From positions 62,001-126,000 of the forward strand of contig NZ_CALPBY010000005.1 in NCBI RefSeq assembly GCF_943181405.1: a DNA stretch of 64,000 bases, given 5' to 3'. The DNA is from Cellulosimicrobium sp. Marseille-Q4280. GTDB lineage: Bacteria > Actinomycetota > Actinomycetes > Actinomycetales > Cellulomonadaceae. The position numbers and the translations under genes are program-made. Under the pieces are notes generated by a model. It was not told the DNA's origin. It saw only the letters and a program-made list of their open reading frames with translations, and did not search any database. Of this stretch, positions 8,071-38,837 are shown one piece after another (position 1 is the first letter of the stretch; each line of letters begins with the position of its first letter).

Positions 8071-8071
8071 C

Positions 8072-9250: not shown

Positions 9251-9322
9251 GGTCCTTCTCCTCCTCCGCGCAGCCTCGCGCGCCGTCGCGGGCCGCCCTC
9301 GGCCCGTGTGTCCGATCCAGGA

Positions 9323-9336
9323 ATGAATCGATTCAT
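9323..9336. promoter_or_regulatory. LacI-type operator of the rhamnose operon
   Basis: The perfect palindrome ATGAATCGATTCAT lies between the isomerase and mutarotase genes, in front of the isomerase start. Its central CG and 14-bp size fit LacI-family operators. A one-mismatch version is at 9824-9835 near the LacI gene, which suggests that regulator binds both. Confidence 0.75.
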
Positions 9337-9441
9337 CGCGAGCGTACGGGAGCCTCTCTCTCGCGGTCAAGACGCCGACGGCGCATCCGGCGAAGGCTGT
9401 GACCGACACCGTGGCCAGGTGGCCGGAGCCCGCCCGGGCGG

Positions 9442-12564: not shown

Positions 12565-14117
12565 GGCGCGCTCACCACCGTTCCCACGGCGGTGACGACC
12601 GCGTCGGCGAGGGCGTCGAGCGAGCCCGCGTCCGCGACGTCGGGCAGGAGCCCCGGCAGGCGCACGAGCGCGCGGACCGCCGCGGCGTCGCCGTCGGCCG
12701 CCTCCACGACCGAGCGCAGCTCCTCGGCACGGGGGTCGTCGACCGCGCGGCCGGCGCGCACCTCGGCGACCACGAACGCCGCCCAGGCCGCGAGCGCGGC
12801 CACGACGCCCTGCGGCAGCGCATCTCCGGCGGACCTGTCGGCGAGACGGTCCGCGAGCGTCCCGCCCCAGCGGAACGGGATCTTCTGCGTCCCGTCCATC
12901 GCGACCTGGCGGGTCGTGTGCCCCGTCGCGGGGTTGGCGAACCGCTCGAGCAGCTCGTCGGCGTAGGCGGCGAGGTCGATCCCGTCGGGGGCCTCGAGCG
13001 TCGCGATCGCGTCGGCCTGCAGCGCGCGGGCCTGCGCCGCGAGCGCCGGGTCCGCGACGGCCTCGGCGATCGTCGCGTACCCGGCGAGGGAGCCCGCGTA
13101 CGCGAGGAGCGAGTGGGCGCCGTTGAGCAGGCGCAGCTTGGCGCGCTCGTACGGCGCGACGTCGTGGGTGAACGTCGCCCCGGCCTGCTCCCACGCCGGT
13201 CGTGGGCCGGCGAAGCGGTCCTCGATGACCCACTGGAGGAACGGCTCGGCGACGACGAGGCCCTCGTCGCGCGCGCCGAGAAGCGTCTCGACCTCGTCGC
13301 GCTGGGCGGGTGTCGTCGCGGGGACGATGCGGTCGACCATGCTGCACGGGAACGTGACCGACGCCGCGAGCCACGCCCGCAGGTCGTCGCCCTCCACGCC
13401 GGGCAGGGCTGTGTCCACGGCCTCCCGGACGAGCGCGGCGAGGACGCGGCCGTTGTCGGCGAGGTTGTCACAGCTCAGCACCGTGAGGGGTGCGCCACCG
13501 GCCCGACGGCGCGCGGCCAGGCCGCGCACGAGCAGCCCGACGGCGCTCGTCGCCGTCTCGACCTCCTCGCGGTACCCCGCGACGTCCTCCTCGCGGGCGA
13601 GCGCGTCGAGGTCGCGGCGCACGGCCTCGACGTCGAGACCGCCACCGGCCCCGCGCGAGTAGCCCTTCTCCGTGATGGTGAGCGTCACGACGTGGGTCGT
13701 CGGCGTGGCGAGCGCGGCGAGGATGCGCGGCGTCTCCTCCGCCGGCCACGCGACGTCGGTCACGGAACCGACGACGCGCGGGGACCCGCCCTCGGGGCCG
13801 ACCGTGAGCACGGTGTACACCCCGCCCTGCGGGCGCAGCTGGTCGCGGACCGACGCGGAGCGCTGCGTCACGCCGAGGATCCCCCAGCGCGTGTCGCCCG
13901 TGGCGAGCGCGGCGTCCTCGGTGGCGACGGCCTGGTGGGCGCGGTGGAACGCCCCGATGCCGAGGTGCACGATCCCGACCTGCGTCGGCCGCACGGGCGC
14001 GGGCAGGTCCGAGGGCACCGTGTCGCGGTGCAGGCGCGTGTCGTCACGGTCGTCCGGCGCCGCGCCCGACAGGGCGTCCGGGGCCGGCGGCGTCGGGGTG
14101 GCGGTCGGGGCGGTCAC
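12561..14117 (-). CDS. uxuB: Mannitol dehydrogenase-family fructuronate reductase
   Basis: A 518-residue long-chain NAD-dependent polyol/uronate dehydrogenase. It has the N-terminal nucleotide-binding segment V-G-I-V-H-L-G-I-G-A-F-H-R-A-H (about 43-57), the S-C-D-N-L segment, and the catalytic-region motif with K-L-R-L-L-N-G-A-H-S (about 344-353). Next to mannonate dehydratase it most likely reduces D-fructuronate to D-mannonate. GTG at 14117 follows AGGAGG and overlaps the stop of the LacI gene. It is a little longer than typical UxuB (about 490) because of a Pro/Thr/Ala-rich N-terminus. Mannitol or arabinitol as substrate is possible but less consistent with context. Confidence 0.88.
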   Translation of the reverse strand: MTAPTATPTPPAPDALSGAAPDDRDDTRLHRDTVPSDLPAPVRPTQVGIVHLGIGAFHRAHQAVATEDAALATGDTRWGILGVTQRSASVRDQLRPQGGVYTVLTVGPEGGSPRVVGSVTDVAWPAEETPRILAALATPTTHVVTLTITEKGYSRGAGGGLDVEAVRRDLDALAREEDVAGYREEVETATSAVGLLVRGLAARRRAGGAPLTVLSCDNLADNGRVLAALVREAVDTALPGVEGDDLRAWLAASVTFPCSMVDRIVPATTPAQRDEVETLLGARDEGLVVAEPFLQWVIEDRFAGPRPAWEQAGATFTHDVAPYERAKLRLLNGAHSLLAYAGSLAGYATIAEAVADPALAAQARALQADAIATLEAPDGIDLAAYADELLERFANPATGHTTRQVAMDGTQKIPFRWGGTLADRLADRSAGDALPQGVVAALAAWAAFVVAEVRAGRAVDDPRAEELRSVVEAADGDAAAVRALVRLPGLLPDVADAGSLDALADAVVTAVGTVVSAP

Positions 14118-15190
14118 ACGGCCTCCTGCGGTTCGGTGGTGCTCGGGCGGGCCCCGGGGGGCACCGTGGTCGGTGGGACGGTCGTCGAGTCGCGCACGAC
14201 GAGCTCGACGGGCAGCTCGTCCTCGGGACCGGTCGGTGGCCCGACGGCGCTGTCCGCGCCGGTCGCCGGGACGCGCGCGGCGCGCCGCGCGTCGAGCAGG
14301 GCCACGAGCCGGTCGACGGCCCGCGCGCCGAGCAGCGAGAGGTCCGTGCGCACGGTCGTGAGGGGCGGCGAGGAGAGCGTCGCGACGAACGTGTCGTCGA
14401 AGCCGACCACGCTGAGGTCGTCCGGGACGGACAGGCCACGCTCCCGGAGCCGCGCCACGAGGCCGAGCGCGACGAGGTCGTTGTAGGCGAGCACCGCCGA
14501 CGCGCCGGAGGCGACCACGAGGTCGGCCGCGGCCCGCCCACCCTCGACGCGCGGACGGAAGGAACCGACCGCGACCGTCTCGACGTCGGGGAAGCGCGCG
14601 TGCGCGAGCTCGAGCCCGTCGCGACGGCGGGCGTCCGACCAGGACCGCTCGGGGCCGCCGACGTAGGCCACGCGCCGGTGCCCGAGCGCTCGCAGGTGCT
14701 CGACGGCGAGCACGACACCGTGCGCGTCGTCGGACGAGACCGCGGGGATCCCGTCGATGCGGAGGTTCACCAGGACGACGGGGGTGTCGCGGGCGACCTC
14801 GAGGTCGGCCTCGACGGCGCGCGGGGAGCACAGGACCAGGCCGTCGGTCTGCGGGCGCAGGCCTTCGACGAGCTCGGTCTCCAGCCCCGGGTCCTCGCCC
14901 GCGTCGACGACGAACACCGCGTGGCCCGTCCTCCGGGCGCGCGCCTGGACACCCTTGGTGACGGAGGCGAAGTAGGGGTTCTCGAGGTCCGGCACGACGA
15001 GGCCCAGCGCACCGGTGCGGCCGGCGCGCAGGCCGCTCGCGGCACGGTTCGGCCGGTAGCCGAGCCGGGTCGCGACGGCGACCACGCGGTCACGCGTCTC
15101 GGGAGCGACGCGCTCGGGCTCCGCGAGTGCTCGCGAGACCGTGGAGATCGACACGCCGCTCTCCCGAGCGACGTCGCGGACTGTGACCAC
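14114..15190 (-). CDS. LacI-family regulator of hexuronate genes
   Basis: A 358-residue LacI/GalR protein. The helix-turn-helix begins almost at the N-terminus (V-T-V-R-D-V-A-R-E-S-G, then I-S-T-V-S-R-A-L). GTG at 15190 is preferred because GAGGAGGGG lies five bases upstream; an ATG at 15211 lacks a good site. The effector domain is normal (L-E-N-P-Y-F, V-V-G-F-D-D). About 25 C-terminal residues rich in Thr/Pro are extra. It heads the leftward operon with the reductase and dehydratase. The same two operator sequences occur before this gene and before uronate isomerase at 26.0 kb, which argues that it controls both units and itself. Confidence 0.9.
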   Translation of the reverse strand: MVTVRDVARESGVSISTVSRALAEPERVAPETRDRVVAVATRLGYRPNRAASGLRAGRTGALGLVVPDLENPYFASVTKGVQARARRTGHAVFVVDAGEDPGLETELVEGLRPQTDGLVLCSPRAVEADLEVARDTPVVLVNLRIDGIPAVSSDDAHGVVLAVEHLRALGHRRVAYVGGPERSWSDARRRDGLELAHARFPDVETVAVGSFRPRVEGGRAAADLVVASGASAVLAYNDLVALGLVARLRERGLSVPDDLSVVGFDDTFVATLSSPPLTTVRTDLSLLGARAVDRLVALLDARRAARVPATGADSAVGPPTGPEDELPVELVVRDSTTVPPTTVPPGARPSTTEPQEAV

Positions 15191-15286: not shown

Positions 15287-15300
15287 TGCGAACGTTTGCA
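15287..15300. promoter_or_regulatory. Hexuronate operator O2, LacI-gene side
   Basis: TGCGAACGTTTGCA, a near-perfect dyad, is the exact reverse complement of the site at 25967-25980 in front of uronate isomerase. It lies 58 bp from O1, comparable to the 56-bp spacing at the other promoter. Confidence 0.75.
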
Positions 15301-15331: not shown

Positions 15332-16375
15332 TCAGACGGCCGGTGCGCGCGATCCCAGGTCCTGCGGCCTGACCGTCGCGCCGGTCGCGGCCGCCTCGTA
15401 GATCGCGCACAGGAGCCGGACGGTCTCGACGGCCTCCTCGATCCCGACCGGGACCGCCGTCGACGTCTCGAGCGCGGCGACGATCCGCTGCCACTGGGCG
15501 AGGTGCCCCGCGTGCCCGATCGCCAGCGGGTCGGCCGCACCGCTGGCGATGTTCCGCGTCCGCGGCTCCGGCACCCCCGGCACGTCCCACCGGCGCACCT
15601 CGCCCTGGCCGAGCTCGACCGAGCCGCGGGAGCCGTACAGCGCGAGGCTCGCGGGGAAGCCCGGCGGCGTCGCCGTCGTCGTGGTGACCACGCCCAGGGC
15701 GCCCGAGGCGAACCGGACCGTCGCGACGGTGGTGTCCTCGGCCGCCATCGCGTGCCCGAGGGTCCCGGACTGCGCGGTCACCGACTCGACCGGGCCGCAG
15801 AGCCAGCGCAGGAGGTCCACGTTGTGCACGCCCTGGTTCATCAACGACCCCCCTCCCTGCTCGGTCGTGGACCGCCACGCCGCGGCGCGGTAGTAGTCGT
15901 CGTCGCGGAACCAGTGGACGTGGGTCGTGGCGAGACGGAGCTCGCCCAGCGCCCCGTCCTCGAAGGCCTTCTTGAGCGCGGCGTGCTCGGTCTCGAAACG
16001 GCGCTGGGAGATCATGGACACCATCAGCCCGCGCTCGCGGGCCGTGCGGGCGACGCGCAGCGCGTCGTCGACGTCCAGGGCGAGCGGCTTCTCGACGACC
16101 ACGTGCCGACCGGCCTCGAGCGCCGCCAGCGCGAGGTCGGCGTGCGTCCCGCTCGGCGAGCAGATCGCCACCACGTCGACCTCCGGGTGCGTGACCACGT
16201 CGTCCGGCTCGAGGTGCTCCGCGGGCCAGCCCGCGAGCTCCTCCGCGGTGGCGGCCCTCGCGCCGCTGTAGGCGACGAGCCGCGCCCGGTCCCCCAGCTC
16301 GCGCAACGCCCGCGCGTGCATCGTGCCGATGCCCCCCATCCCGACGATGCCGACGCCGGTGCGCTTCGCGGTCAT
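15332..16375 (-). CDS. Gfo/Idh/MocA-family sugar oxidoreductase
   Basis: A 347-residue NAD(P)-dependent dehydrogenase. The Rossmann motif is G-I-V-G-M-G-G-I-G (residues 9-17), the conserved E-K-P is at 95-97, and the catalytic-region His184/Asp187 pair is in G-V-H-N-V-D-L-L. Enzymes of this family oxidise or reduce a sugar hydroxyl, often C3 of a glycoside. It is the last gene of the leftward operon (isomerase, permease, binding protein, ATPase, oxidoreductase), 82 bases after the ATPase stop. Regulatory sequence and gene content link this operon to the secreted DUF1080 protein at 22.5-25.8 kb, so generating or consuming a 3-keto sugar is a reasonable inference. The substrate is not known. 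Confidence 0.9.
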   Translation of the reverse strand: MTAKRTGVGIVGMGGIGTMHARALRELGDRARLVAYSGARAATAEELAGWPAEHLEPDDVVTHPEVDVVAICSPSGTHADLALAALEAGRHVVVEKPLALDVDDALRVARTARERGLMVSMISQRRFETEHAALKKAFEDGALGELRLATTHVHWFRDDDYYRAAAWRSTTEQGGGSLMNQGVHNVDLLRWLCGPVESVTAQSGTLGHAMAAEDTTVATVRFASGALGVVTTTTATPPGFPASLALYGSRGSVELGQGEVRRWDVPGVPEPRTRNIASGAADPLAIGHAGHLAQWQRIVAALETSTAVPVGIEEAVETVRLLCAIYEAAATGATVRPQDLGSRAPAV

Positions 16376-16457
16376 GCTGGGTCCTCCTGGGGTCTCGTGG
16401 TGTCCTCGAGGGCCGTGCGGCCGGCACCCGCGGGCGCGGGTGCCGCGCCGGCCGTCG

Positions 16458-17276
16458 TCACTCGGCGACGTGGCTGGCGCCGAGCAGGTCGCGCAGGTGC
16501 TCGGCCGCCGCGGTGAACCGCGGGTCCGCGAGGGTCGTCGCGTACTCGCGGCGGTCCGGCAGGCCGGGTTCGAGCGTCTCGACGATGCGACCGGGGCGCG
16601 GGCTCATCACGACGATCCTGCTGCCGAGGAACACCGCCTCCGGCACCGAGTGCGTGACGAGCACGATGGTCGTCCCCGTCTCGCGCCAGATCCGGTTCAT
16701 CTCGATGTTCATCTGCTCGCGCGTCAGCGCGTCCAGGGCACCGAACGGCTCGTCCATGAGCAGGACGCGCGGCTCGTGCAGGAGCGCCCGGCACAGGGCG
16801 ACGCGCTGCTGCATGCCGCCGGAGAGCTCGTGCGGGAGCGCCTTCTCGAAGCCGCTGAGCCCCGTGAGCTCGATGAGGTGGTCCGCCCGTGCCTCCGCAC
16901 GACGGCGGTCCATCCCGCGCATCTCGGCCTGGAGGAGGATGTTCTTGCGCACCCCGCGCCACTCGAGCAGCGCCGACCGCTGGAAGGCGAACCCGATCTC
17001 GCGCTGTGGCCGGGTGACCCGCTCGCCGTAGAGCCGCACGTCGCCCTCGGAGACGAGCGTCAGCCCCGCCACGATCTTGAGCAGCGTCGACTTCCCGCAG
17101 CCCGACGGGCCCGCGATCGTGACGAACTCGCCGGGCATGACGGTCAGCGACACGTCGTCGAGTGCCACGGTCTCGGACCGCTTCGAGCGGAAGCGCATCG
17201 TGAGGTGCGAGACCTCGATGATCGGTTCCGCGTCGACCGACCGGGTCGGTGCGACGAGCCCGGTCGTGGCGGTCAC
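16458..17276 (-). CDS. ABC transporter ATP-binding protein (NitT/TauT type)
   Basis: A 272-residue ABC ATPase of the nitrate/taurine/sulfonate/thiamine-precursor class. Walker A is G-P-S-G-C-G-K-S-T (residues 56-64), the signature is L-S-G-G-M-Q-Q-R, Walker B is L-L-M-D-E-P-F-G-A-L-D, and the switch His is in V-T-H-S. GTG at 17276 overlaps the stop of the binding-protein gene (GTGA). It powers the importer formed with the permease and NMT1-type lipoprotein upstream. Confidence 0.93.
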   Translation of the reverse strand: MTATTGLVAPTRSVDAEPIIEVSHLTMRFRSKRSETVALDDVSLTVMPGEFVTIAGPSGCGKSTLLKIVAGLTLVSEGDVRLYGERVTRPQREIGFAFQRSALLEWRGVRKNILLQAEMRGMDRRRAEARADHLIELTGLSGFEKALPHELSGGMQQRVALCRALLHEPRVLLMDEPFGALDALTREQMNIEMNRIWRETGTTIVLVTHSVPEAVFLGSRIVVMSPRPGRIVETLEPGLPDRREYATTLADPRFTAAAEHLRDLLGASHVAE

Positions 17277-18301
17277 AGGTCCTCCCCGAAGGTCTGGTCC
17301 CAGTAGTCGGCCGGCGCGTCCGTGCCCTCGAACTCCGTGTTCTCCGACAGGAAGGTCAGCGTGTCCGTCCACTGCTGCTCGGTGTTGACACCGGGAGCCG
17401 GTGCGTCCTCGAGGTTGAGGAGGCCGATCGTCGCCTCGAGCTGCGCCGCGAGGACGCTCTCGTCCGGAGCCTGCTCCGCGCCCGCCGCCATCGCGGCGAC
17501 GGCGGCCTCGGGGTCCTCCGACGCCGCGAGGAACGACTGCGACGTCGCACGCAGCATCGCCTGGACGAGCTCGGGGTCGCTCTCGATCGTCGCCTCGTTC
17601 ACCACGAGGCCCGTGCCGAGCAGGTTCATGCCGAAGTCCGAGAAGGGCAGCGCGGACACCTCGCGGCCCGTCTGGTTCTCGATCGTCGGTGCCTGGTCGT
17701 GGTAGAAGCCCTGGATGGCGTCGACCTTGCCCTCGATGAGCGCGGCGACCTTGCCCGCCGCGTCGACGTTGACCACGGTCACGTCCGCCGGGTCGACGCC
17801 GTTGATCTCGAGCCACGCCGGGAACGTGCCGTACATGGCGTCGCCGGGGGTCCCGCCGACGGTCTTGCCGACGAGGTCGGCCGGTTCGGTGATCCCCTGG
17901 TCGTCGAAGAACTCCACGGAGCTCGGACCGGTCTGCAGGAAGACGCCGACGCTGCGCACCGGCATGCCGGAGCTGATCCCGTTCGCGAGCGGCGGGGTGT
18001 CCGCCCACCCGAAGTCGGTGTTGCGCTGCGCGACCTGCTGGACCGTGTTCCCGGAGCCGTTGCCCGGCTGGATCGTCAGGTCGATGCCCTCCTCCTCGAA
18101 GATCCCCTGCTCGACCCCCAGGTAGAACGGCGCGTGCTCCCCGTACGGCACCCAGTTGAGGGTGACCGTGACCTCCGTCAGTCCGCCGTCCCCCTCACCG
18201 CCCCCGGATCCCGAGGGGTCGGACGACTGCCCGCAGGCCGACGTCCCTGCCACCACGACGCCGGCCACCACCAGCGAAACTCCCAGCCTGCCACCACGCA
18301 T
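17273..18301 (-). CDS. NMT1/THI5-like ABC substrate-binding lipoprotein
   Basis: A 342-residue solute-binding protein with a lipoprotein signal (hydrophobic 6-18, lipobox ending in A-C at about 23). The mature N-terminus has L-N-W-V-P-Y-G-E-H-A-P-F-Y, the hallmark of the NMT1/THI5-like family that in known cases binds thiamine-pyrimidine precursors, riboflavin-like compounds or small organic acids. Finding it in a LacI-controlled operon with sugar enzymes is unusual, because sugar operons normally use CUT1/CUT2 transporters. The ligand may be an aglycone or a glycoside with an aromatic part; that is inference. ATG at 18301 follows an AGAAGGG site. Confidence 0.88.
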   Translation of the reverse strand: MRGGRLGVSLVVAGVVVAGTSACGQSSDPSGSGGGEGDGGLTEVTVTLNWVPYGEHAPFYLGVEQGIFEEEGIDLTIQPGNGSGNTVQQVAQRNTDFGWADTPPLANGISSGMPVRSVGVFLQTGPSSVEFFDDQGITEPADLVGKTVGGTPGDAMYGTFPAWLEINGVDPADVTVVNVDAAGKVAALIEGKVDAIQGFYHDQAPTIENQTGREVSALPFSDFGMNLLGTGLVVNEATIESDPELVQAMLRATSQSFLAASEDPEAAVAAMAAGAEQAPDESVLAAQLEATIGLLNLEDAPAPGVNTEQQWTDTLTFLSENTEFEGTDAPADYWDQTFGEDL

Positions 18302-18378
18302 GGAATGAGCCCTTCTTCTCGTGCCGTCCTCGCGGACGGCGGAAACCGTGGGAAGTTGCCTGTCAGTTCGGGGAAGGG

Positions 18379-19332
18379 TCACGCCGCCGCGAGGGCGAGG
18401 TTGCCCCGTCGGGAGGCGTGCCAGGGGATGAGGATCCGCTCGAGCAGCTCGACCAGCAGGAACAGGACCACGCCGATCATCGACATGAGGATGAGGTCGG
18501 CGAAGAGCAGCGGGGCGTCCAGGTTCCCGCTCGCGAGCAGGAGGACGTACCCCAGTCCCCGGTCCGCACCCACGAACTCGCCGACGACCGCGCCCACGAC
18601 GGCGAGGGTGACGGCCACCTTCAGGCCGGACATGAGCTGCGGGAGGGATCCCGGGAAGCGGATCTTCCGGAACGTCTTCCACCGCGAGGCGCCCATGGTC
18701 GCCGACAGCTCCAGCAGCTCGGGGTCGACCGAGCGCAGGCCTGCGACGGCGGACACCACGACGGGGAAGAAGGCGATGAGGACGGCGAGGATGATCTTCG
18801 GCGTCAGCCCGAACCCGAACCAGACCACGAGGATCGGGGCGATGGCGATCTTGGGGATGACCTGCGCGAAGAGGATCAGCGGGTACAGCGACTTCTCCGC
18901 GGTCGGCGAGTAGACGAGGAGGACGGCCGTCGCGACGCCGATCACGGCGGCGAGCACGAAGCCGATGACGGTCTCCATCGTGGTCACCCAGGTGTGCTCG
19001 AGCAGCATCGCCCAGTCCTCGACCATGGTGTCCCACACCGCGCCGGGGGCCGGCACGAGGTACGCCGGGACGAGCTCGCGCCACGCGACGAACCACCACA
19101 CGGCGAACAGGGCCAGGAGCACCAGTGCGGGCCGCCACGCCGCGGAGGCCACCGCGAGCACCCGGCTGCGGAACGACGTCGTGCCGCGGTCCTCGGGAGA
19201 GCGGTCGCGGCCCGTGGTCGGCGGTGCCGGTCGTCTGGCGGGTCGTACGTCCTGGGCAGTCGTCATCGCGCTGTCCTCCATCGTCGTCGTCCTGGTGCTC
19301 GGGGGTCCGGCCGGGGTCGGCGCGTCCGTCAT
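18379..19332 (-). CDS. ABC transporter permease (NitT/TauT type)
   Basis: A 317-residue inner-membrane permease with about six hydrophobic helices after a 60-residue polar N-terminus. The EAA loop is visible as E-L-S-A-T-M-G-A-S-R-W-K-T-F-R-K-I (about 200-216), which docks to the ATPase. The ATG at 19332 overlaps the stop of the isomerase gene (ATGA), so I prefer it, although two later in-frame ATGs would remove the long polar leader. Partner of the binding protein and ATPase downstream. Confidence 0.9.
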   Translation of the reverse strand: MTDAPTPAGPPSTRTTTMEDSAMTTAQDVRPARRPAPPTTGRDRSPEDRGTTSFRSRVLAVASAAWRPALVLLALFAVWWFVAWRELVPAYLVPAPGAVWDTMVEDWAMLLEHTWVTTMETVIGFVLAAVIGVATAVLLVYSPTAEKSLYPLILFAQVIPKIAIAPILVVWFGFGLTPKIILAVLIAFFPVVVSAVAGLRSVDPELLELSATMGASRWKTFRKIRFPGSLPQLMSGLKVAVTLAVVGAVVGEFVGADRGLGYVLLLASGNLDAPLLFADLILMSMIGVVLFLLVELLERILIPWHASRRGNLALAAA

Positions 19333-20156
19333 CGGAACGGCACCCCCTCGGCGGCGAGGATGCCGCTGAAGGCCTCCCAGGCCTCGGTGAACAGCTCCGG
19401 GCCGGAGAAGCCACCGAGGCGGTGGGCGGTGCCCAGGTGCGGCTCGAGCGAGAAGAAGCCGTCGAACCCGTCGTCGCGCAGGGCCCGGACGGTCTCGACG
19501 AGCTCGCCGTCGCCGTGGCCCGCGGGCACGACCTCCCCCGTGTCGCGCCGGGCGTCCTTCACCTGCACGTACTCCAGGTGCGGGCGCAGCAGCGCATAGC
19601 CGTCGGTGTAGGGGCGCACGCCGACCTGCACGAAGTTCGCGGAGTCCCACGCGAGCGTCAGGTGCGGCGACCCGACGGACTCCACGACGTCCAGGCAGCG
19701 CTCGGGGACGTCCCCGTAGATGCCCTTCTCGTTCTCGTGGAGCAGGACGACGCCGGCCTCGCGCGCCACGTCCGCGAGCGCTGTCATGCGGTGCAGCACG
19801 ACGTCGCGGCACGACGTGGGGTCCGTCCCCGGACGCACGAAGAACGAGAAGACCCGGACGTACGGGGCGTCGAGCCGCTGCGCGACGTGCGCGGCGTGCC
19901 GCATCCGGGCGAGGTGGGCGTCGAAGTCCTCGTCCACCGAGATCTTGCCGATCGGCGACCCGATGCTCGACACCCGCAGGTCGTACCGCTGCAGCAGCCG
20001 CTCGACCCGGTCGAGCTGCTCGTCGTCGAGGTCGAGGACGTTCGTGTCCCAGGCGCTGCGGAGCTCGACGAACCGCAGGCCGAGCTCGGTCGCCACCACG
20101 CACTGCGTCTCGAGATCAGGCGAGATCTCGTCCGCGAAGCCCGAGAGCGTCCACAC
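19329..20156 (-). CDS. Sugar phosphate isomerase/epimerase-like TIM-barrel protein
   Basis: A 275-residue member of the AP-endonuclease-2/xylose-isomerase-like barrel family. Metal-binding acidic/His segments are visible: L-L-H-E-N-E-K-G (about 137-144), L-A-W-D-S-A-N-F (about 168-175), Y-V-Q-V-K-D (about 196-201) and a late F-S-L-E-P-H-L. Relatives isomerise ketoses, epimerise, or catalyse beta-elimination of 3-keto-glycosides together with a Gfo/Idh/MocA partner. GTG at 20156 follows AGGGAGG. First gene of the leftward five-gene operon; a 28-bp operator-like element lies 160 bases upstream. Confidence 0.87.
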   Translation of the reverse strand: MWTLSGFADEISPDLETQCVVATELGLRFVELRSAWDTNVLDLDDEQLDRVERLLQRYDLRVSSIGSPIGKISVDEDFDAHLARMRHAAHVAQRLDAPYVRVFSFFVRPGTDPTSCRDVVLHRMTALADVAREAGVVLLHENEKGIYGDVPERCLDVVESVGSPHLTLAWDSANFVQVGVRPYTDGYALLRPHLEYVQVKDARRDTGEVVPAGHGDGELVETVRALRDDGFDGFFSLEPHLGTAHRLGGFSGPELFTEAWEAFSGILAAEGVPFR

Positions 20157-20315
20157 GTCGTGCCCTCCCTTTCTCGTCGTCCGTCCCGGGCCGACCCGTG
20201 CCGTCGTCGGCAGCCTCCGGGAGGCTCGGGTCGGGGGACGTGTGTCGAGGAACTGCGCACGGAGCTCGTTCTCGGTGCGTCTGCATGGACAGTAGGGGGC
20301 CGGTCGTGACGGGAA

Positions 20316-20343
20316 CAACGAGTTGCCACTTGTTGCACCTGTC
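20316..20343. promoter_or_regulatory. 28-bp operator element, leftward operon copy
   Basis: This 28-bp segment is repeated exactly, in reverse complement, at 22358-22385. It contains the core AACGAGTTGCCACTTGTTGC, which reads as overlapping LacI-type half-sites (GGCAAC/GTTGCC). It lies upstream of the isomerase-ABC-oxidoreductase operon, while the other copy precedes the secreted DUF1080 gene. The LacI regulator gene lies between the two. Confidence 0.8.
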
Positions 20344-20396
20344 CGGGTCCGACGGGGCGGTGAGGCACTGGCGCGCGCGCAGGGAGGAACCACGCC

Positions 20397-20415
20397 GGTT
20401 GCCACCGGTTGCCAC
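20397..20415. promoter_or_regulatory. Tandem GGTTGCCAC half-sites
   Basis: GGTTGCCAC occurs twice at a 10-bp spacing (20397-20405 and 20407-20415), between the end of the LarE-like gene and the 28-bp element. The half-site matches the core of that element, so this may be an auxiliary binding site for the same LacI protein. Confidence 0.5.
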
Positions 20416-20451
20416 GGTCCGGGTGCGCCGTCGGGGCGGGACGGTGCGGAC

Positions 20452-21183
20452 TCAGGCCTCGTGGGCGTCCGCGAGCGCACCGAGGTCGAGCGCGACACGC
20501 CGGTACCCCGCCGAGCGGACGGCTCGCAGGACCTCTCCGCGCAGGGGCTCGGCGGCGACCGCAGCCACGTCGGTGTGCGGCGCCTCGACGCGGGCGAGCT
20601 CGCCGTGGTGGTGGACGCGGAGCTCTTCGAGACCGAGCCGGCGCAGCTCGCTCTCGGCCGCCTCGACCTGGACGGCGTCCTCGTCCGCGCGCGAACGGTC
20701 CTGCGGCGGGCCGGAGAGCCCGAGCGTCGCGAGGTCGAGCCCTGCCAGCGCGAGCGGGACGACGAGGGCCGACCCGTCGGCGAGGTGCGCGTCCTCGGCG
20801 ACGACGGCGGCTGCCAGGTCGAGCGCACGGACCGCCTCGCCGACCCCGCGCCCGCCCAGGTCGAAGACCGGCGCGCCGAGTCCGTTCGCGGCCTGCACGA
20901 CGACGCAGCGCCGGGACGGCGTGGCTGCGGTCGTGGCGTCCACGAGGGCGACGACGCGGGAGCGGCCGACCGCGCCGACCGTCAGTCCGAGCAGGACCTG
21001 CGAGCTCTCGTCCCCGGAGAAGACGACGCCCAGGCGACCTCCGTCGCCCACCGCGGCGATCCGGGCGGTGACCGCCCGGACGACCTCGTCGACCGTCGTC
21101 GTACCGGGGTGCCCCGAGGCCCGCGGCCGACTCGCCGTCGGGACAGGCAGGGGCGCGTCTGCGCGCCTCGTCACGGTTGCCAT
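20452..21183 (-). CDS. Degenerate LarE-like PP-loop protein
   Basis: A 243-residue protein I recognise as related to LarE, the ATP-dependent sacrificial sulfur transferase that builds the nickel-pincer cofactor. The N-terminal region aligns with the PP-loop domain (R-L-G-V-V-F-S-G-D-E-S-S, then L-G-L-T-V-G-A-V-G-R-S-R-V). The C-terminal region aligns well with the LarE tail (L-R-R-L-G-L-E-E-L-R-V-H-H-H-G-E-L-A-R-V-E; G-Y-R-R-V-A-L-D-L-G). However, SGGxDS has become SGDESS, the sacrificial-cysteine segment has no Cys, and the protein stops before the R-S-G-x-M-N end motif. LarA, LarB and LarC are not nearby. Start ATG at 21183 is chosen on position; its ribosome site is weak. It lies between the two copies of the 28-bp operator. 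Function unknown. Confidence 0.7.
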   Translation of the reverse strand: MATVTRRADAPLPVPTASRPRASGHPGTTTVDEVVRAVTARIAAVGDGGRLGVVFSGDESSQVLLGLTVGAVGRSRVVALVDATTAATPSRRCVVVQAANGLGAPVFDLGGRGVGEAVRALDLAAAVVAEDAHLADGSALVVPLALAGLDLATLGLSGPPQDRSRADEDAVQVEAAESELRRLGLEELRVHHHGELARVEAPHTDVAAVAAEPLRGEVLRAVRSAGYRRVALDLGALADAHEA

Positions 21184-21257
21184 TGGAGAGCCGCCGTCAG
21201 GGCGCGTCAAGCAGTTGCCATCACTTGCCTTCCGGCGTCTCAGCGGGCCGACGCGGC

Positions 21258-21269
21258 GCAACCGGTTGT
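21258..21269. promoter_or_regulatory. LacI-type operator upstream of the central LacI gene
   Basis: GCAACCGGTTGT, with a perfect 10-bp core CAACCGGTTG, lies 37 bases before the LacI start and within the divergent promoter region shared with the LarE-like gene. Related GTTGCCA half-sites lie at about 21174-21180 and 21214-21220. Probable autoregulatory site. Confidence 0.6.
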
Positions 21270-21305
21270 TGTCCAGCGCTGTCAGCACCGTTACAGTCCG
21301 AGCGC

Positions 21306-22313
21306 ATGACCCCAGCCGGCAATGGTGCCAGCCCGACGATCTACGACGTGGCCAAGGCGGCCGGCGTCGCGCCCTCGACCGTCTCGCGCGCGTTCTCGCG
21401 CCCCGGCCGCGTCAACGCGGAGACCGCGGAACGCATCCGCCAGGTCGCGAGCGAGCTCGGCTACCGGACGAACCCGCTCGCTCGCGGCCTGCCGACGGGC
21501 CGGACGTCGCTCCTCGGGATCGTGGTGGCGGACGTGACCAACCCGTTCTTCTTCGAGATCATCCGCGGCGCCGAGGCCACCGCACGAGACGCCGGGTACA
21601 CGCTCCTCATGGTCGACGCCCACGAGTCCGACGAGGCGGAGCGCCAGGCCCTCGACCGCACCCTGCCCCTCGTGGAGGGCATGATCCTGGCGACGTCACG
21701 GCTGTCGGACTCCTCGATCCGGGTCGCCGCCAAGCAGCGTCCGACCGTCGTCATGAACCGTCTGATGACCGACGTCCCGAGCGTCCTGACGGACAACGCC
21801 CAGGGGATGCGGAGCGCCGTCGAGCACCTGGCGGGCCTCGGGCACACGAGCCTCGCCTACCTCGCCGGACCGGAGGCGTCGTGGGCGGACGGCATGCGCT
21901 GGCGCGCGTTCCGCGAGGCGACGCGCGAGAGCGACCTGCAGGCACGCCGGCTCGGCCCCTACGCGCCGACCCTCGCCGGCGGCCTCTCGGCGGCGAAGAC
22001 GCTGGTCAAGCACTCGGCGACCGCCGCCGTCGCGTACAACGACCTCATCGCGATCGGCGCGATGCGCGGCATGGGGCGCCTCGGCGTCGAGGTACCGCGG
22101 GACATGAGCATCGTCGGGTTCGACAACATCTTCGGCTCGGACTTCTGCTCCCCGCCGCTCACGACGGTCGCCGCGCCCCTGCGCCACTTCGGGTCGTTCG
22201 CGGTCCAGCGGCTCCTGGCCCAGCTGCGCACGACCCCGGCGCAGGCCGCCGGGGCGACCTTGCTCCCGGCGAAGCTCGTGGAACGGGGCTCGACCGGCCG
22301 CCGCCGCGCCTGA
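21306..22313 (+). CDS. LacI-family regulator of the glycoside locus
   Basis: A 335-residue LacI/GalR protein. Helix-turn-helix at about residues 11-32 (I-Y-D-V-A-K-A-A-G, P-S-T-V-S-R-A-F), hinge L-P-T-G, then the effector domain with T-N-P-F-F-F near residue 78 and I-V-G-F-D-N near 269. ATG at 21306; the frame is open further upstream but lacks a helix-turn-helix-compatible start. It sits between the leftward ABC/oxidoreductase operon and the rightward secreted DUF1080 gene, and GGCAAC/GTTGCC-type sites flank both sides, so it is the obvious candidate to control all of them. Confidence 0.9.
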   Translation: MTPAGNGASPTIYDVAKAAGVAPSTVSRAFSRPGRVNAETAERIRQVASELGYRTNPLARGLPTGRTSLLGIVVADVTNPFFFEIIRGAEATARDAGYTLLMVDAHESDEAERQALDRTLPLVEGMILATSRLSDSSIRVAAKQRPTVVMNRLMTDVPSVLTDNAQGMRSAVEHLAGLGHTSLAYLAGPEASWADGMRWRAFREATRESDLQARRLGPYAPTLAGGLSAAKTLVKHSATAAVAYNDLIAIGAMRGMGRLGVEVPRDMSIVGFDNIFGSDFCSPPLTTVAAPLRHFGSFAVQRLLAQLRTTPAQAAGATLLPAKLVERGSTGRRRA

Positions 22314-22357
22314 GGGACGGGGCGGAGCGGCTCCACCGGCTGCGGCCGGCGGCGCGC

Positions 22358-22385
22358 GACAGGTGCAACAAGTGGCAACTCGTTG
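22358..22385. promoter_or_regulatory. 28-bp operator element, secreted-hydrolase copy
   Basis: Exact reverse complement of 20316-20343. It contains GGCAACTCGTTGCC when extended to 22387, a LacI-type dyad. It lies 45 bases after the LacI stop and 104 bases before the start of the secreted multi-domain gene, where it would act on a promoter for that gene. Confidence 0.8.
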
Positions 22386-22488
22386 CCCCTGCACGTCGCG
22401 GCCGCCGATAGTGGCGAGGCAGCGCACCGATGCGCACGTCCTGTGCACCTTCCCAGGCACGCAAGGCCCTCGACGGAGAGGCAGGCTG

Positions 22489-25400
22489 ATGGATCTCACC
22501 CCGCTCGACGAAAGACCCCCACGCACCCCGGACCAGCGGCGCAGACGACGGGCGGCCGTGGCCGCGATCGTCGCGCTGGCCGTGCCGTTCGGCGTCCTGA
22601 CGGCCCAGGCCGCGGTACCGACGGCCGCCGACGACGACATCCGGCCGCAGGAGCCCGGCGTCACGCTGCGCGTCTTCGACGTCCAGTTCCCGCTCGTGGA
22701 GTACTGCACGCTCAAGCCGGGGCAGACCCCCAACGTCGACAAGATCATGCCGACGATCGACTGGACCACCGCCGCGGACTTCGGGCTCGGGGACCAGTTC
22801 GTCACCGAGGTCACCGGATACCTGAACGTCGCCACGGCAGGGACGTACGACTTCCGCATCACGAGCGACGACGGCGCCCGGCTCCTGCTCGACGACGAGC
22901 TCGTGGTCGACCACCCGGGCCGGCACGGCGCCACGTCCAAGGACGGGTCGATCGACCTCGAGGCGGGCTACCGCGCGCTGCACATCGACCACTTCGACGG
23001 CGCCTTCGACCAGCGGCTCAAGCTGGAGTGGCGGCCGCCGGGCTCGCAGGACTTCGTCCTCGTGCCGAACAGCGTCCTGAGCACCGACGCCGACGTCACG
23101 CGCGTCACGTCGCCCGGTCGCAAGTCCTGCGAGGGCATCACCGAGACCCCGGGCGACGGCCTGCCCCTCACCGAGGTGCACCCGGACTACACGCTGACCG
23201 ACCTGCGCCCCGAGGGCTTCGAGCCCCAGGTGACGGGCATGGACTGGCTGCCCGACGGCCGTCTGGCCATCTCCTCGTGGGGCGGCGACCGGCTCACGGA
23301 GCTCGGCGAGGTGTACCTGATCGACCACGTGACCGGCGACGGCGGCGCGGACGAGGTGACCTACACGAAGGTCGCCGAGGGCCTGACGGAGCCGATGGGG
23401 ATCAAGTACGTCGACGGCACGCTCTACGTGTCCGAGAAGGACGGCCTCACGGCGCTGGTCGACGAGGACGGCGACGAGGTCGCCGACGAGTACCGCACGA
23501 TCGCGACGTGGCCGTTCGGCGGCAACTACCACGAGTTCGCGTTCGGCCTGCTGTACGAGGAGGGGTACTTCTACGTCACCACGGGCATCGCGATGGTGCC
23601 CGGCGGCAACTCGCTCGACCCGCAGCTCGCCGAGAACCGCGGATCGGTCATGAAGATCGACAAGGACACCGGCGAGGTCGAGTACGTCGCGGGCGGCCTG
23701 CGCACGCCGAACGGGCTCGGCTGGGGCGCCGACGGGGGCATGTACGTCACGGACAACCAGGGGGTGCGCATCCCGACGTCGAAGCTCGTGCGCGTCGAGG
23801 AGGGTGCGTTCTACAACCACTTCACCAACCCCGACGGCCCCTACGACGACCAGCCCGTCACCGAGCCGGTCCTGTGGATGCCCCACAGCGAGATCTCGAA
23901 CTCGCCGAGCAACCCGGTCGTGCTGACCGAGGGCGTCTTCGCGGGGCAGATGGCGATCGGCGACGTGACGTACGGCGGCCTCCAGCGCGCCTACCTCGAG
24001 GACGTCGCGGGCCAGGAGCAGGGCGCCGTGTTCCGGATGACGCAGGGCCTCGAGTCCGGCGTCAGCCGCACGAGCGTCGGCCCCGACGGCGCGATCTACG
24101 TCGGCGGCATCGGCTGGTCGGGCAACTGGGGGCAGGCGGGCAAGCTCTCGTACGGCCTCCAGAAGCTCACCTACGACGACAACCACGCGTTCGACATGCT
24201 CGAGATGCGCGCCGTCGAGGGCGGGTTCGAGATCGAGTACACGCAGCCGCTGTCCGAGGAGACGGCGCAGGACCTCGCGTCGAAGTACACGGCCGCGCAG
24301 TGGCGCTACGTCGCGACCCCGCAGTACGGCGGCCCGAAGGTCGACGAGGAGGACCTCGACGTGACGGCCGCGACGCTGTCGGACGACGGGAAGACGGTGT
24401 CGCTCCAGATCGACGGGCTCAAGCCCGGTCGGGTCGTGAACGTCCACTCCCCGCGTCCCTTCGCGTCGGAGAGCGGCGCCGAGCTGTGGAGCACCGAGGC
24501 CTGGTACACGCTCACGCGCCTGCCGGACGGCTCGGTCGCGCCGCCGGTGTACGAGGCCGAGGCCGCCGACATCGGCGGTGGCGCCGGCTGGAACAGCAAC
24601 CACGCCGGCTACTCGGGCTCCGGGTTCGTCGACCGCAACTGGGAGCCGGGTGCCCGCACGACGTTCGCGGTCCGCGCCGAGGAGGCCGGCCTGCACGACC
24701 TCGCGATCCGCTACGCCAACGGGCAGAACAGCGACCCGCAGCCGACGCCGAGGAACCTGAGCCTCTACGTCAACGGCGAGAAGCTCAAGCAGGTCTGGTT
24801 CGACAGCACGGTGAGCTGGGCGACGTGGGCGACCCAGGTCGAGACCGTGCCGCTGCGCGAGGGCGCGAACACCATCACGATCCAGCACGACGACGACGAC
24901 ATCGGTCACGTCAACCTCGACAGCCTCACCGTCACGCCGAACGAGCGGATCACCCTGTTCGACGGCACGGACCTCGACGCGTGGGCGGCGGTCAACGGCG
25001 GCGGTCCTGCGACGTGGCCGATCGCGGACGGCTCGTTCGAGTCCTTCGGCGGCGACATCCGGACGAAGGAGAAGTTCGACGACTTCCGGATGCACGTGGA
25101 GTGGTACCAGCCCGAGCACGCCCCCACGCAGACCGGCCAGGCCCGCGGCAACAGCGGCGTCTACATCCAGGAGCGCTACGAGGTCCAGGTGCTCGAGTCG
25201 TTCGGCATCGACCCGCCGAAGAACAACGACGCCGGCGCGATCTACCTCAAGAAGGCGCCGGACGTGAACGCCGCGACCCCGATGGGCACGTGGCAGACGT
25301 ACGACCTCACGTTCCGGGGGGCACGCTTCGGGCCCGACGGCACCAAGACCGAGGACGCGCGCATCACGCTCGTGTGGAACGGGCAGCTCGTGCACGACGA

Positions 25401-25845
25401 CGTCGCGGTCGACGGAAAGACCGGGAACGGCAAGGACGAGGGTCCGACGTCGGGGTACATCAAGCTGCAGGACCACGGCGACCCGGGCCTCAACCCGCGG
25501 TTCAGGAACGTCTGGATCGAGCGCCTCCCGAGCCAGGAGGAGCCCGCGCAGGAGGAGGTCGCGATCACCGCGACCGCCGAGGTCAGGTGTCTCGCGGGCA
25601 CGCCGTACGTCGCGGTCCGCGCCGTCAACGACGACACCGTCCCCCTGGACGTCGCCGTCGACACGCCGTTCGGGTCGAAGACCTTCGCCGACGTCGCGCC
25701 CGGCAAGAGCGCCTACCAGGCGTTCCCGGTCCGTGACGCCGAACCGGCGGCAGGCTCCGTGACCGTCACCGCCCGTCCGTCCGACACCTCAGACGAGCGG
25801 GAGACCGTCACGGAACCGGAGCACGACCAGCCCGACTGCGGCTGA
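22489..25845 (+). CDS. Secreted PA14 / beta-propeller / CBM / DUF1080 multi-domain protein
   Basis: An 1118-residue exported protein. Signal peptide about 1-41 (five Arg, hydrophobic core, A-Q-A). A PA14-like domain follows (about 58-195: V-A-T-A-G-T-Y-D-F-R-I-T-S-D-D-G-A-R-L). Then a six-bladed soluble glucose/sorbosone-dehydrogenase-like propeller (about 225-590), a carbohydrate-binding module starting V-Y-E-A-E-A-A (about 685-815), and a DUF1080/3-keto-disaccharide hydrolase domain (about 820-1010: L-F-D-G-T-D-L-D-A-W; G-N-S-G-V-Y-I-Q; W-Q-T-Y-D-L-T-F). The last 100 residues are an unassigned beta-rich tail with two Cys. PA14 and the CBM should bind glycans and the DUF1080 domain should cleave a 3-keto-glycoside. 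ATG at 22489 is placed by the signal peptide; ribosome site GGAGAGGCAGGCTG is just upstream. Substrate unknown. Confidence 0.88.
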   Translation: MDLTPLDERPPRTPDQRRRRRAAVAAIVALAVPFGVLTAQAAVPTAADDDIRPQEPGVTLRVFDVQFPLVEYCTLKPGQTPNVDKIMPTIDWTTAADFGLGDQFVTEVTGYLNVATAGTYDFRITSDDGARLLLDDELVVDHPGRHGATSKDGSIDLEAGYRALHIDHFDGAFDQRLKLEWRPPGSQDFVLVPNSVLSTDADVTRVTSPGRKSCEGITETPGDGLPLTEVHPDYTLTDLRPEGFEPQVTGMDWLPDGRLAISSWGGDRLTELGEVYLIDHVTGDGGADEVTYTKVAEGLTEPMGIKYVDGTLYVSEKDGLTALVDEDGDEVADEYRTIATWPFGGNYHEFAFGLLYEEGYFYVTTGIAMVPGGNSLDPQLAENRGSVMKIDKDTGEVEYVAGGLRTPNGLGWGADGGMYVTDNQGVRIPTSKLVRVEEGAFYNHFTNPDGPYDDQPVTEPVLWMPHSEISNSPSNPVVLTEGVFAGQMAIGDVTYGGLQRAYLEDVAGQEQGAVFRMTQGLESGVSRTSVGPDGAIYVGGIGWSGNWGQAGKLSYGLQKLTYDDNHAFDMLEMRAVEGGFEIEYTQPLSEETAQDLASKYTAAQWRYVATPQYGGPKVDEEDLDVTAATLSDDGKTVSLQIDGLKPGRVVNVHSPRPFASESGAELWSTEAWYTLTRLPDGSVAPPVYEAEAADIGGGAGWNSNHAGYSGSGFVDRNWEPGARTTFAVRAEEAGLHDLAIRYANGQNSDPQPTPRNLSLYVNGEKLKQVWFDSTVSWATWATQVETVPLREGANTITIQHDDDDIGHVNLDSLTVTPNERITLFDGTDLDAWAAVNGGGPATWPIADGSFESFGGDIRTKEKFDDFRMHVEWYQPEHAPTQTGQARGNSGVYIQERYEVQVLESFGIDPPKNNDAGAIYLKKAPDVNAATPMGTWQTYDLTFRGARFGPDGTKTEDARITLVWNGQLVHDDVAVDGKTGNGKDEGPTSGYIKLQDHGDPGLNPRFRNVWIERLPSQEEPAQEEVAITATAEVRCLAGTPYVAVRAVNDDTVPLDVAVDTPFGSKTFADVAPGKSAYQAFPVRDAEPAAGSVTVTARPSDTSDERETVTEPEHDQPDCG

Positions 25846-25924: not shown

Positions 25925-25966
25925 GTAGTGCTCCCAGATCATCGAAGCGCTGCGATTGACGTAGGA

Positions 25967-25980
25967 TGCAAACGTTCGCA
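25967..25980. promoter_or_regulatory. Hexuronate operator, proximal site at uxaC
   Basis: TGCAAACGTTCGCA, the exact reverse complement of the site at 15287-15300 before the hexuronate LacI operon. It is 21 bases upstream of the uxaC GTG start, where a bound repressor would block initiation. Confidence 0.78.
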
Positions 25981-26001
25981 ACGACGCTTCAGGAGGATTC
26001 C

Positions 26002-27501
26002 GTGACGAGCACGGCCCACGCTGTCCCGACCACCGCGACGGCGTCGTGGTCCCTGCACCCCGACCGCGCGCTGCCCGCGGACCCGGTCCAGCGCCCGATC
26101 GCCCGTGAGGTCTACGCGGCGACGCGCGACCTGCCGATCGTGTCGATGCACGGCCACGTCGACGTCGCGCTGTTCGCCGACGACACGCCGTTCGGCAACC
26201 CCGCGGAGCTGTTCGTCACGCCCGACCACTACCTCGTGCGCATGCTCGTCGCCCAGAGCACGTCGCCGCACGGCGCGCCCGGCGTCCGGGGGGTCCAGGA
26301 CCTCGGCGTCGCACCGGTCCCCGGCGCACCCGCCGGGACCGCACCGGCGGAGGCCGACCCTCGCGAGATCTGGCGCCGGTTCTGCGCCGGGTGGCGCCTG
26401 TTCCGCGGCACGCCGACGCGCTACTGGACGGAGCACGCGCTCGTCGAGGTGTTCGACGCACCCGTCCGCCCGTCGGCCGAGACCGCCGACGAGCTCTACG
26501 ACCACCTCGTCGACCGCCTCGCCCGCCCGGAGTTCCGCCCGCGAGCCCTGTTCGAGCGGTTCGGGATCGAGATCCTCGCGACGACCGACCCCGCGCAGTC
26601 GCCGCTCGCCGACCACGCGCGCCTCGCGGCGGACGGCTGGGGCGAGCGGGTCGTGCCGACGTTCCGCCCGGACCCGCTCCTGCACGTCGACCGCACGGAC
26701 TGGACGGAGCAGGTGCGCGCGCTCGGCGCCGCGGCGGGGGGCGACGTCGTCGACTACCGCTCGTACCTCGACGCTCTGCGCTCCCGGCGCGCCGCGTTCG
26801 TCGCCGCGGGCGCCCGCGCGACCGACCACGGCCACCTCCGCGCCGACACCACGCCCCTCGACGACGCGGACGCGGCCCGGATCCTCGACGCCGCGCTGCG
26901 GGGCGAGGTCACGACGGCGGAAGCGGACGCGTTCTCGGCGCACATGCTCTTCCAGATGGCCGCGATGTCCGCCGAGGACGGCCTCGTCATGCAGCTGCAC
27001 CCGGGTGTGCTCCGCGACCACTGCGAGGGCGTCGCGCGCGCCTACGGCTCGGACAAGGGATACGACATCCCCGAGCAGACGGAGTACGTGCGCTCCCTGC
27101 GCCCCGTGCTCGAGGCCTTCGGCCACCACCCGGGGTTCCGGATGATCGCCTTCACCGTCGACGAGACGTCGTTCTCGCGCGAGCTCGCACCGCTCGCGGG
27201 CGTCTACCCCGCGCTGCGCCTCGGCGCGCCGTGGTGGTTCCTCGACACGCCCGAGGGCATGCGCCGCTTCCGCGAGGCGGCGACGGACTCCGCGGGCTTC
27301 TACAACACGAGCGGGTTCGTCGACGACACGCGCGCGTTCTGCTCGATCCCGGCCCGGCACGACCTCGCGCGGCGCATCGACGCCGGTCACCTCGCGCGCC
27401 TCGTCGCGGAGCACCGGCTCGACCTCGACGAGGCGCTGGAGACCGCCGTCGACCTGGCGTACCACCTGCCGAAGGCGTCGTACCCCGCGCTGCGGGCCTG
27501 A
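26002..27501 (+). CDS. uxaC: Uronate (glucuronate/galacturonate) isomerase
   Basis: A 499-residue amidohydrolase-fold isomerase converting D-glucuronate to D-fructuronate (and D-galacturonate to D-tagaturonate). The metal motif H-G-H-V-D is at about residues 38-42, followed by the family segments L-F-A-D-D, R-Y-W-T-E-H and M-Q-L-H-P-G-V-L-R-D-H, with W-W-F-L-D-T-P near the C-terminal third. GTG at 26002 is chosen because AGGAGG ends six bases upstream; an earlier ATG at 25966 would place coding sequence over the operator. Product feeds the fructuronate reductase and mannonate dehydratase at 11.4-14.1 kb. Confidence 0.93.
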   Translation: MTSTAHAVPTTATASWSLHPDRALPADPVQRPIAREVYAATRDLPIVSMHGHVDVALFADDTPFGNPAELFVTPDHYLVRMLVAQSTSPHGAPGVRGVQDLGVAPVPGAPAGTAPAEADPREIWRRFCAGWRLFRGTPTRYWTEHALVEVFDAPVRPSAETADELYDHLVDRLARPEFRPRALFERFGIEILATTDPAQSPLADHARLAADGWGERVVPTFRPDPLLHVDRTDWTEQVRALGAAAGGDVVDYRSYLDALRSRRAAFVAAGARATDHGHLRADTTPLDDADAARILDAALRGEVTTAEADAFSAHMLFQMAAMSAEDGLVMQLHPGVLRDHCEGVARAYGSDKGYDIPEQTEYVRSLRPVLEAFGHHPGFRMIAFTVDETSFSRELAPLAGVYPALRLGAPWWFLDTPEGMRRFREAATDSAGFYNTSGFVDDTRAFCSIPARHDLARRIDAGHLARLVAEHRLDLDEALETAVDLAYHLPKASYPALRA

Positions 27502-30195: not shown

Positions 30196-30302
30196 GCGTC
30201 GGTGAGGTCCTCGTCGTCGTTCCGTCGGTGCATCGATCCGTCTGCCACGGAGGGCACGGAAGGCACGGAAGCCGCGGCGCGAGCGCTCGCCCGGGAGCCG
30301 CG

Positions 30303-30316
30303 GGAAACCGATTACC
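30303..30316. promoter_or_regulatory. Shared LacI-like operator, GH43 / serine hydrolase promoters
   Basis: GGAAACCGATTACC lies between the divergent GH43 and serine hydrolase genes. It reads as the reverse of GGTAACCGGTTTCC at 37986-37999 with one change, giving a near-palindromic consensus GGTAACCGGTTNCC. Confidence 0.65.
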
Positions 30317-30373
30317 CTCACCCTATCGTCCCGGTCCGGGACGTCCGCGCGCCGTCCGTCCGAGAGGTTCACC

Positions 30374-34487: not shown

Positions 34488-34520
34488 CGTGGTCTCCTGT
34501 CGGTGCTGGTGCTGTCGCCG

Positions 34521-34542: not shown

Positions 34543-34576
34543 CGGCGATGTCGTGCGAGGCTGGGTCAGCCGTGCG

Positions 34577-36825: not shown

Positions 36826-36856
36826 GGCGGTGCCGTTCCACCGACGGCCGGGGCCG

Positions 36857-38815: not shown

Positions 38816-38837
38816 GGTGCCGATCGTCCTCTCGATG

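Follow-up and report, generated by a model that had tools for sequence, protein, structure and literature searches.

A 64,000-nucleotide stretch of a Cellulosimicrobium genome, here called the window, holds a real, conserved regulon in which the LacI-family regulator LacI1 is flanked by two transcription units. One is the gene for an exported protein with a DUF1080 domain, and the other is an operon for a xylose-isomerase-like TIM barrel, an NMT1-type ATP-binding cassette (ABC) importer and a Gfo/Idh/MocA oxidoreductase (Gfo). The chances are about even that this regulon serves the use of a glucuronic-acid-containing glycoside via a two-compartment 3-keto route. The most surprising part of the locus is a LarE-like gene beside the regulator, which looks like an exaptation of a nickel-pincer biosynthesis domain.

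Pfam and NCBIfam scans of the window confirmed the genes, order and coordinates given in a preliminary description of this DNA, from which the LarE-like gene was absent. Gene starts, taken from a codon-usage gene caller, are approximate. The features of the regulon are as follows.

15332..16375, minus strand: Gfo/Idh/MocA oxidoreductase, 347 amino acids (Pfam GFO_IDH_MocA)
16458..17276, minus strand: ABC transporter ATPase, 272 amino acids (Pfam ABC_tran)
17273..18301, minus strand: NMT1/THI5-type solute-binding protein, 342 amino acids (PF09084, 155.8 bits)
18379..19332, minus strand: ABC permease, 317 amino acids (PF00528)
19329..20156, minus strand: xylose-isomerase-like TIM barrel (the cytosolic isomerase), 275 amino acids, first gene of the operon (PF01261)
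20316..20336, plus strand: LacI1 operator 1, preceding the isomerase operon (exact CAACGAGTTGCCACTTGTTGC)
20452..21183, minus strand: degenerate LarE, 243 amino acids, with a broken PP-loop half and a conserved C-terminal domain
21207..21229, plus strand: weaker LacI1-type site between LacI1 and the LarE-like gene (matrix score 18.2 in a scan of the window)
21306..22313, plus strand: LacI-family regulator LacI1, 335 amino acids (PF00356, Peripla_BP_3, tree)
22365..22385, minus strand: LacI1 operator 2, preceding the DUF1080 gene (exact CAACGAGTTGCCACTTGTTGC)
22489..25845, plus strand: exported PA14, beta-propeller (DUF7133/SGL-like), CBM35 and DUF1080 protein, 1118 amino acids

The minus-strand operon runs from 20156 to 15332 in the order isomerase, permease, binding protein, ATPase and Gfo. 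The NCBIfam models nearest to the ATPase are of the taurine, SaoA and nitrate type (25 listed, all under cut-off). Judged by eye, the binding protein has a lipobox-like leader and the 1118-residue protein a signal-like N-terminus.

The shared operator of the preliminary description was borne out. The 21-base-pair sequence CAACGAGTTGCCACTTGTTGC stands exactly before both units, and allowing up to three mismatches adds no further match in the whole genome, the reversed-pattern control giving none. Two congeners and three Promicromonospora genomes gave 3, 2, 2, 2 and 2 matches (reversed control 0); over all six genomes, including that of the window, there are two in each of G000, G013, G022, G046 and G089 and three in G012. 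Sites similar to the weaker one at 21207..21229 are also found in Promicromonospora.

The genes also stay together in other genomes, a co-occurrence that the preliminary description had put forward as a check. Orthologues of the binding protein at 82% identity or more occur in 18 of 149 relatives (13 Cellulosimicrobium, 4 Promicromonospora and 1 Oerskovia). The cassette could be read around the orthologue in 17 of them, G003 ending at a contig edge and G004 and G014 having interrupted frames, and it is split over small contigs in G001. An isomerase orthologue (55% identity or more) is present in 25 of the 149. A further tier of binding proteins at 46-50% comprises four genomes, three of which have a LacI, a Gfo-like and a TIM-barrel-like gene in the same stretch, the last recognized by eye and unscanned. 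Besides Cellulosimicrobium, the cassette is present in Oerskovia, Promicromonospora and a fourth genus.

The relatives of the regulator indicate the class of substrate. In an unrooted tree, LacI1 groups (100/98) with regulators of other genera that stand beside a GH2 beta-glucuronidase, uxaC, uxuB, LarA or LarE. The DNA-binding segment is nearly identical in LacI1 relatives of 53% identity or more and less alike in the 46-47% relatives that stand beside the isomerase. An operator matrix built from cassette sites was scanned on 18 non-cassette loci and 77 control loci. The 18 are the fetched non-cassette loci (28) less L078, L085, L094, L095, L096, L098, L099, L100, L103 and L105; L077, L080 and L206, which were kept, have no LacI1 homologue within the fetched stretch. 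A score of 19 or more was reached at 12 of the 18 loci and at none of the 77 controls. The sites precede GH2 (L081, L204 and L205), a GPH carrier (L077), uxaC (L076, and weaker in L082, L093 and L199), the 6-phosphogluconate dehydrogenase-LarE pair (L084 and L097, weaker in L206), the isomerase (L076, L082 and L086) and transporter genes, and they also lie between uxaC and LarA (L084, weaker in L079). Regulator and operator are common to beta-glucuronidase, uxaC or a glucuronide carrier in relatives, the mark of a glucuronide LacI regulon. Because relatives of LacI1 adjoin genes for beta-glucuronidase, uxaC and a LarA-type protein and have similar sites there, a glycoside of glucuronic acid is the likely substrate. 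The preliminary description had proposed 3-keto chemistry on plant O- and C-glycosides in general; that proposal is kept in altered form, with glucuronic-acid glycosides as the likelier substrates.

The 3-keto chemistry is suggested by the enzymes. The DUF1080 domain (PF06439), a mark of the 3-keto-glycoside pathway, scores 135.5 bits against a gathering score of 26.8, and its solved relatives include 4qhz and 3h3l. Gfo matches 3q2k and 3q2i best, over its full length; these we take to be WlbA, the C3 dehydrogenase of nucleotide-linked glucuronic acid. Lower matches include DgpA (7xr9) and 8tdi, whose chain is named glucuronide-3-dehydrogenase. In the fold comparisons of this analysis, folds of the Protein Data Bank that ranked low or were missing were not counted as absent. 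Further candidates come from relatives. In G012 an extra exact operator precedes genes for an exported TIM barrel and a GSDH-type propeller protein, and an exact site precedes the same pair of genes in G009. The same two genes lie directly behind the DUF1080 gene in seven of the eight Promicromonospora loci read. In G258 a single operon behind the operator encodes the exported TIM barrel, isomerase, permease, solute-binding protein, ATPase, Gfo and GSDH. These arrangements imply that the role outside the cell can fall to the DUF1080 protein, as in the window and most congeners, to the pair of GSDH and TIM barrel, or to all of them together. The best solved relatives of the exported TIM barrel are 8tcs, 8tcd and 8tct. 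Together with DgpA among the Gfo matches, these partners behind the same operator or beside DUF1080 strengthen the two-compartment route first suggested in the preliminary description, in which the chemistry was and stays inferred.

Two observations on exported proteins of the window strain may be added. Its genome encodes more exported-looking GSDH-like proteins (L116:2395-7041 and L117:2857-9119), fused to or beside TIM-barrel domains that are 28-40% identical to the exported TIM barrel, and it seems to hold several such sets. At its C-terminal end, the DUF1080 protein has a stretch of ~100 residues (25537-25845) that resembles a repeated domain: six Cellulosimicrobium genomes have 25 to 53 matches each to the DUF1080 protein, most of those listed being to residues ~1000-1118 and inside large open frames. 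No Pfam family was reported for this part, and a Promicromonospora homologue has a Big_3_5 domain in its place. The repeat may serve the genus as a surface or export tag.

A route can be drawn from these parts, for which we infer the substrate, the direction of each reaction and the imported compound. Outside the cell, the exported DUF1080 protein would oxidize and/or cleave a C3-oxidized glycoside, and in relatives the exported GSDH-type and TIM-barrel proteins may do so as well or instead. An acidic product, perhaps 3-keto-glucuronate or a glycal, would enter by the NMT1-type importer. Inside, the TIM-barrel isomerase and Gfo would convert it to glucuronate, which the products of uxaC, uxuB and uxuA could carry to 2-keto-3-deoxygluconate. 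If this is right, a known but recent 3-keto route has been wired as an inducible two-compartment glucuronide system in soil actinomycetes, and an importer class seldom met for sugars serves glucuronide use. The uronate genes stand on either side of the regulon.

11440..15190, minus strand: neighbouring uronate operon lacI2-uxuB-uxuA
14114-15190, minus strand: lacI2
12561-14117, minus strand: uxuB-like gene
11440-12564, minus strand: mannonate dehydratase gene uxuA
26002..27501, plus strand: glucuronate isomerase gene uxaC, a neighbour with another operator (PF02614 on 25966-27501)

A second LacI-type operator, TGCAAACGTTCGCA, stands exactly at 15287-15300, before lacI2-uxuB-uxuA, and at 25967-25980, before uxaC; at three mismatches it has five matches against 2.75 expected, which is not above chance. 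The locus is thus two adjacent LacI regulons. A GC hairpin with a short T-rich tail, seen by eye, lies between the DUF1080 gene and uxaC; the promoter and terminator scan missed it and found no promoters and no terminators in all, and an Rfam search gave no matches at gathering scores. A single transcript from operator 2 covering both the DUF1080 gene and uxaC was considered and rejected because this hairpin and an exact TGCAAACGTTCGCA intervene.

Several findings weigh against a glucuronide 3-keto route. Since uxaC and uxuAB are under a different operator, they are neighbours of the LacI1 regulon that lie outside it, and no uxu genes adjoin the Promicromonospora loci. Four of the 77 control loci also reach a matrix score of 15, as do 15 of the 18 non-cassette loci, and three of the 18 fall short of 10, including GH2 loci L101 and L207. 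None of the 18 genomes with the cassette has a GH2 beta-glucuronidase, but this absence, once considered as support, was dropped as not significant (P 0.11, kinship ignored). The window strain has no orthologue of the exported TIM barrel (best match about 40%). Gfo scores 36.3 and 28.1 bits against the NCBIfam 3-dehydrogenase families BT_2159 and BT_2158, under cut-offs of 650 and 750, and inositol dehydrogenases match it about as well as 8tdi. The isomerase model (AlphaFold2, pLDDT, predicted local distance difference test, 92.5) is as near in fold to epimerases as to AtHYD, and the attempt to read its reaction from the fold was abandoned, as fold cannot separate an epimerase from a hydratase.

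The DUF1080 protein is also often met apart from the cassette. Its homologues, surveyed at the best 80 of 137 loci with eight genes looked at on either side, extend to Streptomyces and Amycolatopsis. The cassette stands at 13 of the 80, partial in some owing to contig ends or runs of N, and 65 have no cassette orthologue. Two cassette loci (G258 and G267) have no DUF1080 gene, only a 52% relative elsewhere, and the four congeners that lack the cassette also carry a 49-51% paralogue. That the DUF1080 protein alone defines the system was thus rejected, given this paralogue and the 65 cassette-free loci among the 78 that could be read (L150 and L153 having no called DUF1080 gene). Because homologues of DUF1080 mostly stand without it, the cassette is a conserved unit of one family and not of all actinobacteria.

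Some of these points fit a 3-keto route for plant O- and C-glycosides generally, that is for glucosides, with import of the aglycone or a 3-keto-glucoside and coincidental uronate neighbours. The DUF1080 domain, DgpA among the Gfo matches, the likeness of the relatives' exported TIM barrel to 8tcs, 8tcd and 8tct, the Promicromonospora loci free of uxu genes and the separate operator of uxaC and uxuAB all speak for it. Against it stand the relatives of LacI1 and the sites at glucuronidase, glucuronide carrier and uxaC, and the nearness of Gfo to 3q2k and 3q2i; with these it is an unlikely explanation, although the strongest of the alternatives. Slightly less probable again is ordinary catabolism of sugar acids or ketoses, with a 3-epimerase, a plain sugar or inositol dehydrogenase and a polysaccharide-binding DUF1080 hydrolase and no 3-keto chemistry. 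The isomerase model ranks with UlaE, IolI and allulose 3-epimerases, weak sequence matches of the isomerase include D-tagatose 3-epimerases, inositol dehydrogenases occur among the Gfo matches, and the isomerase adjoins uxaC and uxuB in relatives. Against this explanation stands the one regulon common to DUF1080, the exported TIM barrel and GSDH. The glucuronide route by 3-keto chemistry is the reading preferred here.

The LarE-like protein resembles LarE only in its C-terminal part (residues 170-237 of 243). It matches TIGR00268 with E 5.5e-10 and 38.9 bits, where the cut-off for the whole protein is 150. In an alignment with 14 LarE proteins of 12 genomes, the PP-loop reads SGDESS where these have SGGVDS, so the SGGXDS motif is lost, and the region of the CXXC-C cluster and the sacrificial Cys176 is missing. 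The fold of the LarE C-terminal domain is retained, and this domain alone is predicted to fold (pLDDT 87). LarA (PF09861) and LarC (PF01969) were found in none of 17 genomes of the genus, LarB not being searched genome-wide, nor were LarA or LarC found in any of 19 genomes with the derived LarE.

Selection on the two halves differs. The ratio of nonsynonymous to synonymous polymorphism (pN/pS) is 0.794 in the catalytic half against 0.312 in the C-terminal 64 codons (n=4: window, L072, L073 and L074), and the core set of degenerate LarE sequences has 0.275 (five sequences: the same four and L075, which starts at a contig end). L083 was excluded from these sets, its assembly being broken by frame changes. 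In relatives that have the C-terminal domain as a stand-alone protein of 88-111 residues, pN/pS is 0.19 (n=8) and 0.11 (n=4). Variable sites of the domain fall by codon position as 4/1/14, 8/2/35 and 15/7/40; this count also left L073 out of the core set and took only the N-terminal half of L083. The domain is kept in the 13 cassette-bearing Cellulosimicrobium genomes, Oerskovia and 9 Promicromonospora genomes, and it stands alone beside a LacI1 homologue in G090 and G218. The survey covered 39 genomes, with surroundings read in all but G263, G041, G217 and G241.

That the gene is a mere decaying pseudogene is a disfavoured and very improbable explanation: it agrees with the lost PP-loop and CXXC, the near-neutral catalytic half and the missing LarA and LarC, but not with the constraint on the last 64 codons and on the stand-alone proteins, the codon-position pattern, the retention across three genera or the predicted independent fold. 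Close to even, if a little short of it, is the chance that the LarE C-terminal domain, freed from cofactor synthesis, became a small stand-alone protein serving the glucuronide regulon. The gene would be left over from an earlier form of the regulon, one with a nickel-pincer epimerase, and its C-terminal domain would have been kept for another job, possibly as a partner in oligomerization or ligand sensing for LacI1, the importer or the enzymes. The lineage may have passed from full LarE with LarA, LarB and LarC through a dead catalytic half to the bare domain, while the pathway may have shifted from beta-glucuronidase and a nickel epimerase to exported 3-keto chemistry and mannonate dehydratase. 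A cofactor-biosynthesis enzyme would then have been caught shedding its catalytic half as its other domain was recruited for a new role.

The distribution of mannonate dehydratase was examined alongside. UxuA occurs in 13 of the 17 genomes of the genus, and none of the 149 genomes has both LarA and UxuA. Relatives with no UxuA match carry a set made up of uxaC, uxuB, a kinase of the FGGY family, 6-phosphogluconate dehydrogenase, a LarA homologue, LarB and LarE; it is complete in L097, and subsets of it are found in L084, L076 and L082. The set is predicted to be a nickel-dependent glucuronate-to-gluconate route.

Elsewhere in the window, 4418-9804 and 28540-40678 look like a plant-polysaccharide hub, with rhamnose mutarotase, likely rhamnose catabolism, GH28, GH43, GH10 and a SBP_bac_1-type binding protein. 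A search of open PubMed Central (PMC) papers listed none with a stand-alone LarE domain in its title and nothing on Cellulosimicrobium glucuronide regulators, and it found no paper with a 3-keto-glucuronide term.

The locus shares features with several known systems. A single-domain DUF1080 protein is proposed in PMC9007349 as a periplasmic 3-keto hydrolase, and in the Agrobacterium work outlined in PMC10628242 an eliminase (OGE), a hydratase (AtHYD) and an oxidoreductase of the Gfo type turn a 3-keto-glucoside towards glucose, the final steps resting on preliminary evidence. As with BT2157-type DUF1080, the Agrobacterium enzymes and DgpA, the window encodes DUF1080, Gfo and xylose-isomerase-like TIM barrels together, and the template of cleavage followed by hydration and reduction comes from 3-keto-glycoside breakdown as described in such accounts. 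Unlike the known 3-keto systems, Gfo here falls outside BT_2158 and BT_2159, the importer is of NMT1 type, and regulator and context point to glucuronides. The Bacteroides uronate regulators UxuR, UxaR and KdgR are described as LacI-type (PMC4052901), so LacI-family control of uronate use is found there too; LacI1 belongs to an actinobacterial group and also runs the DUF1080 protein and the NMT1 importer. GntE/LarAH19 enzymes are described as gluconate 2-epimerases in a uronic-acid context (PMC7583248), and several relatives' loci likewise have LarA homologues beside uxaC and uxuB, a setting not found in the window genus, in which 13 of 17 genomes have uxuA instead. Finally, LarE is a sulfur transferase of nickel-pincer cofactor synthesis, whereas its derivative here has neither SGGXDS nor CXXC-C, belongs to a genus without LarA or LarC in the genomes searched, and in many relatives retains the C-terminal domain only.

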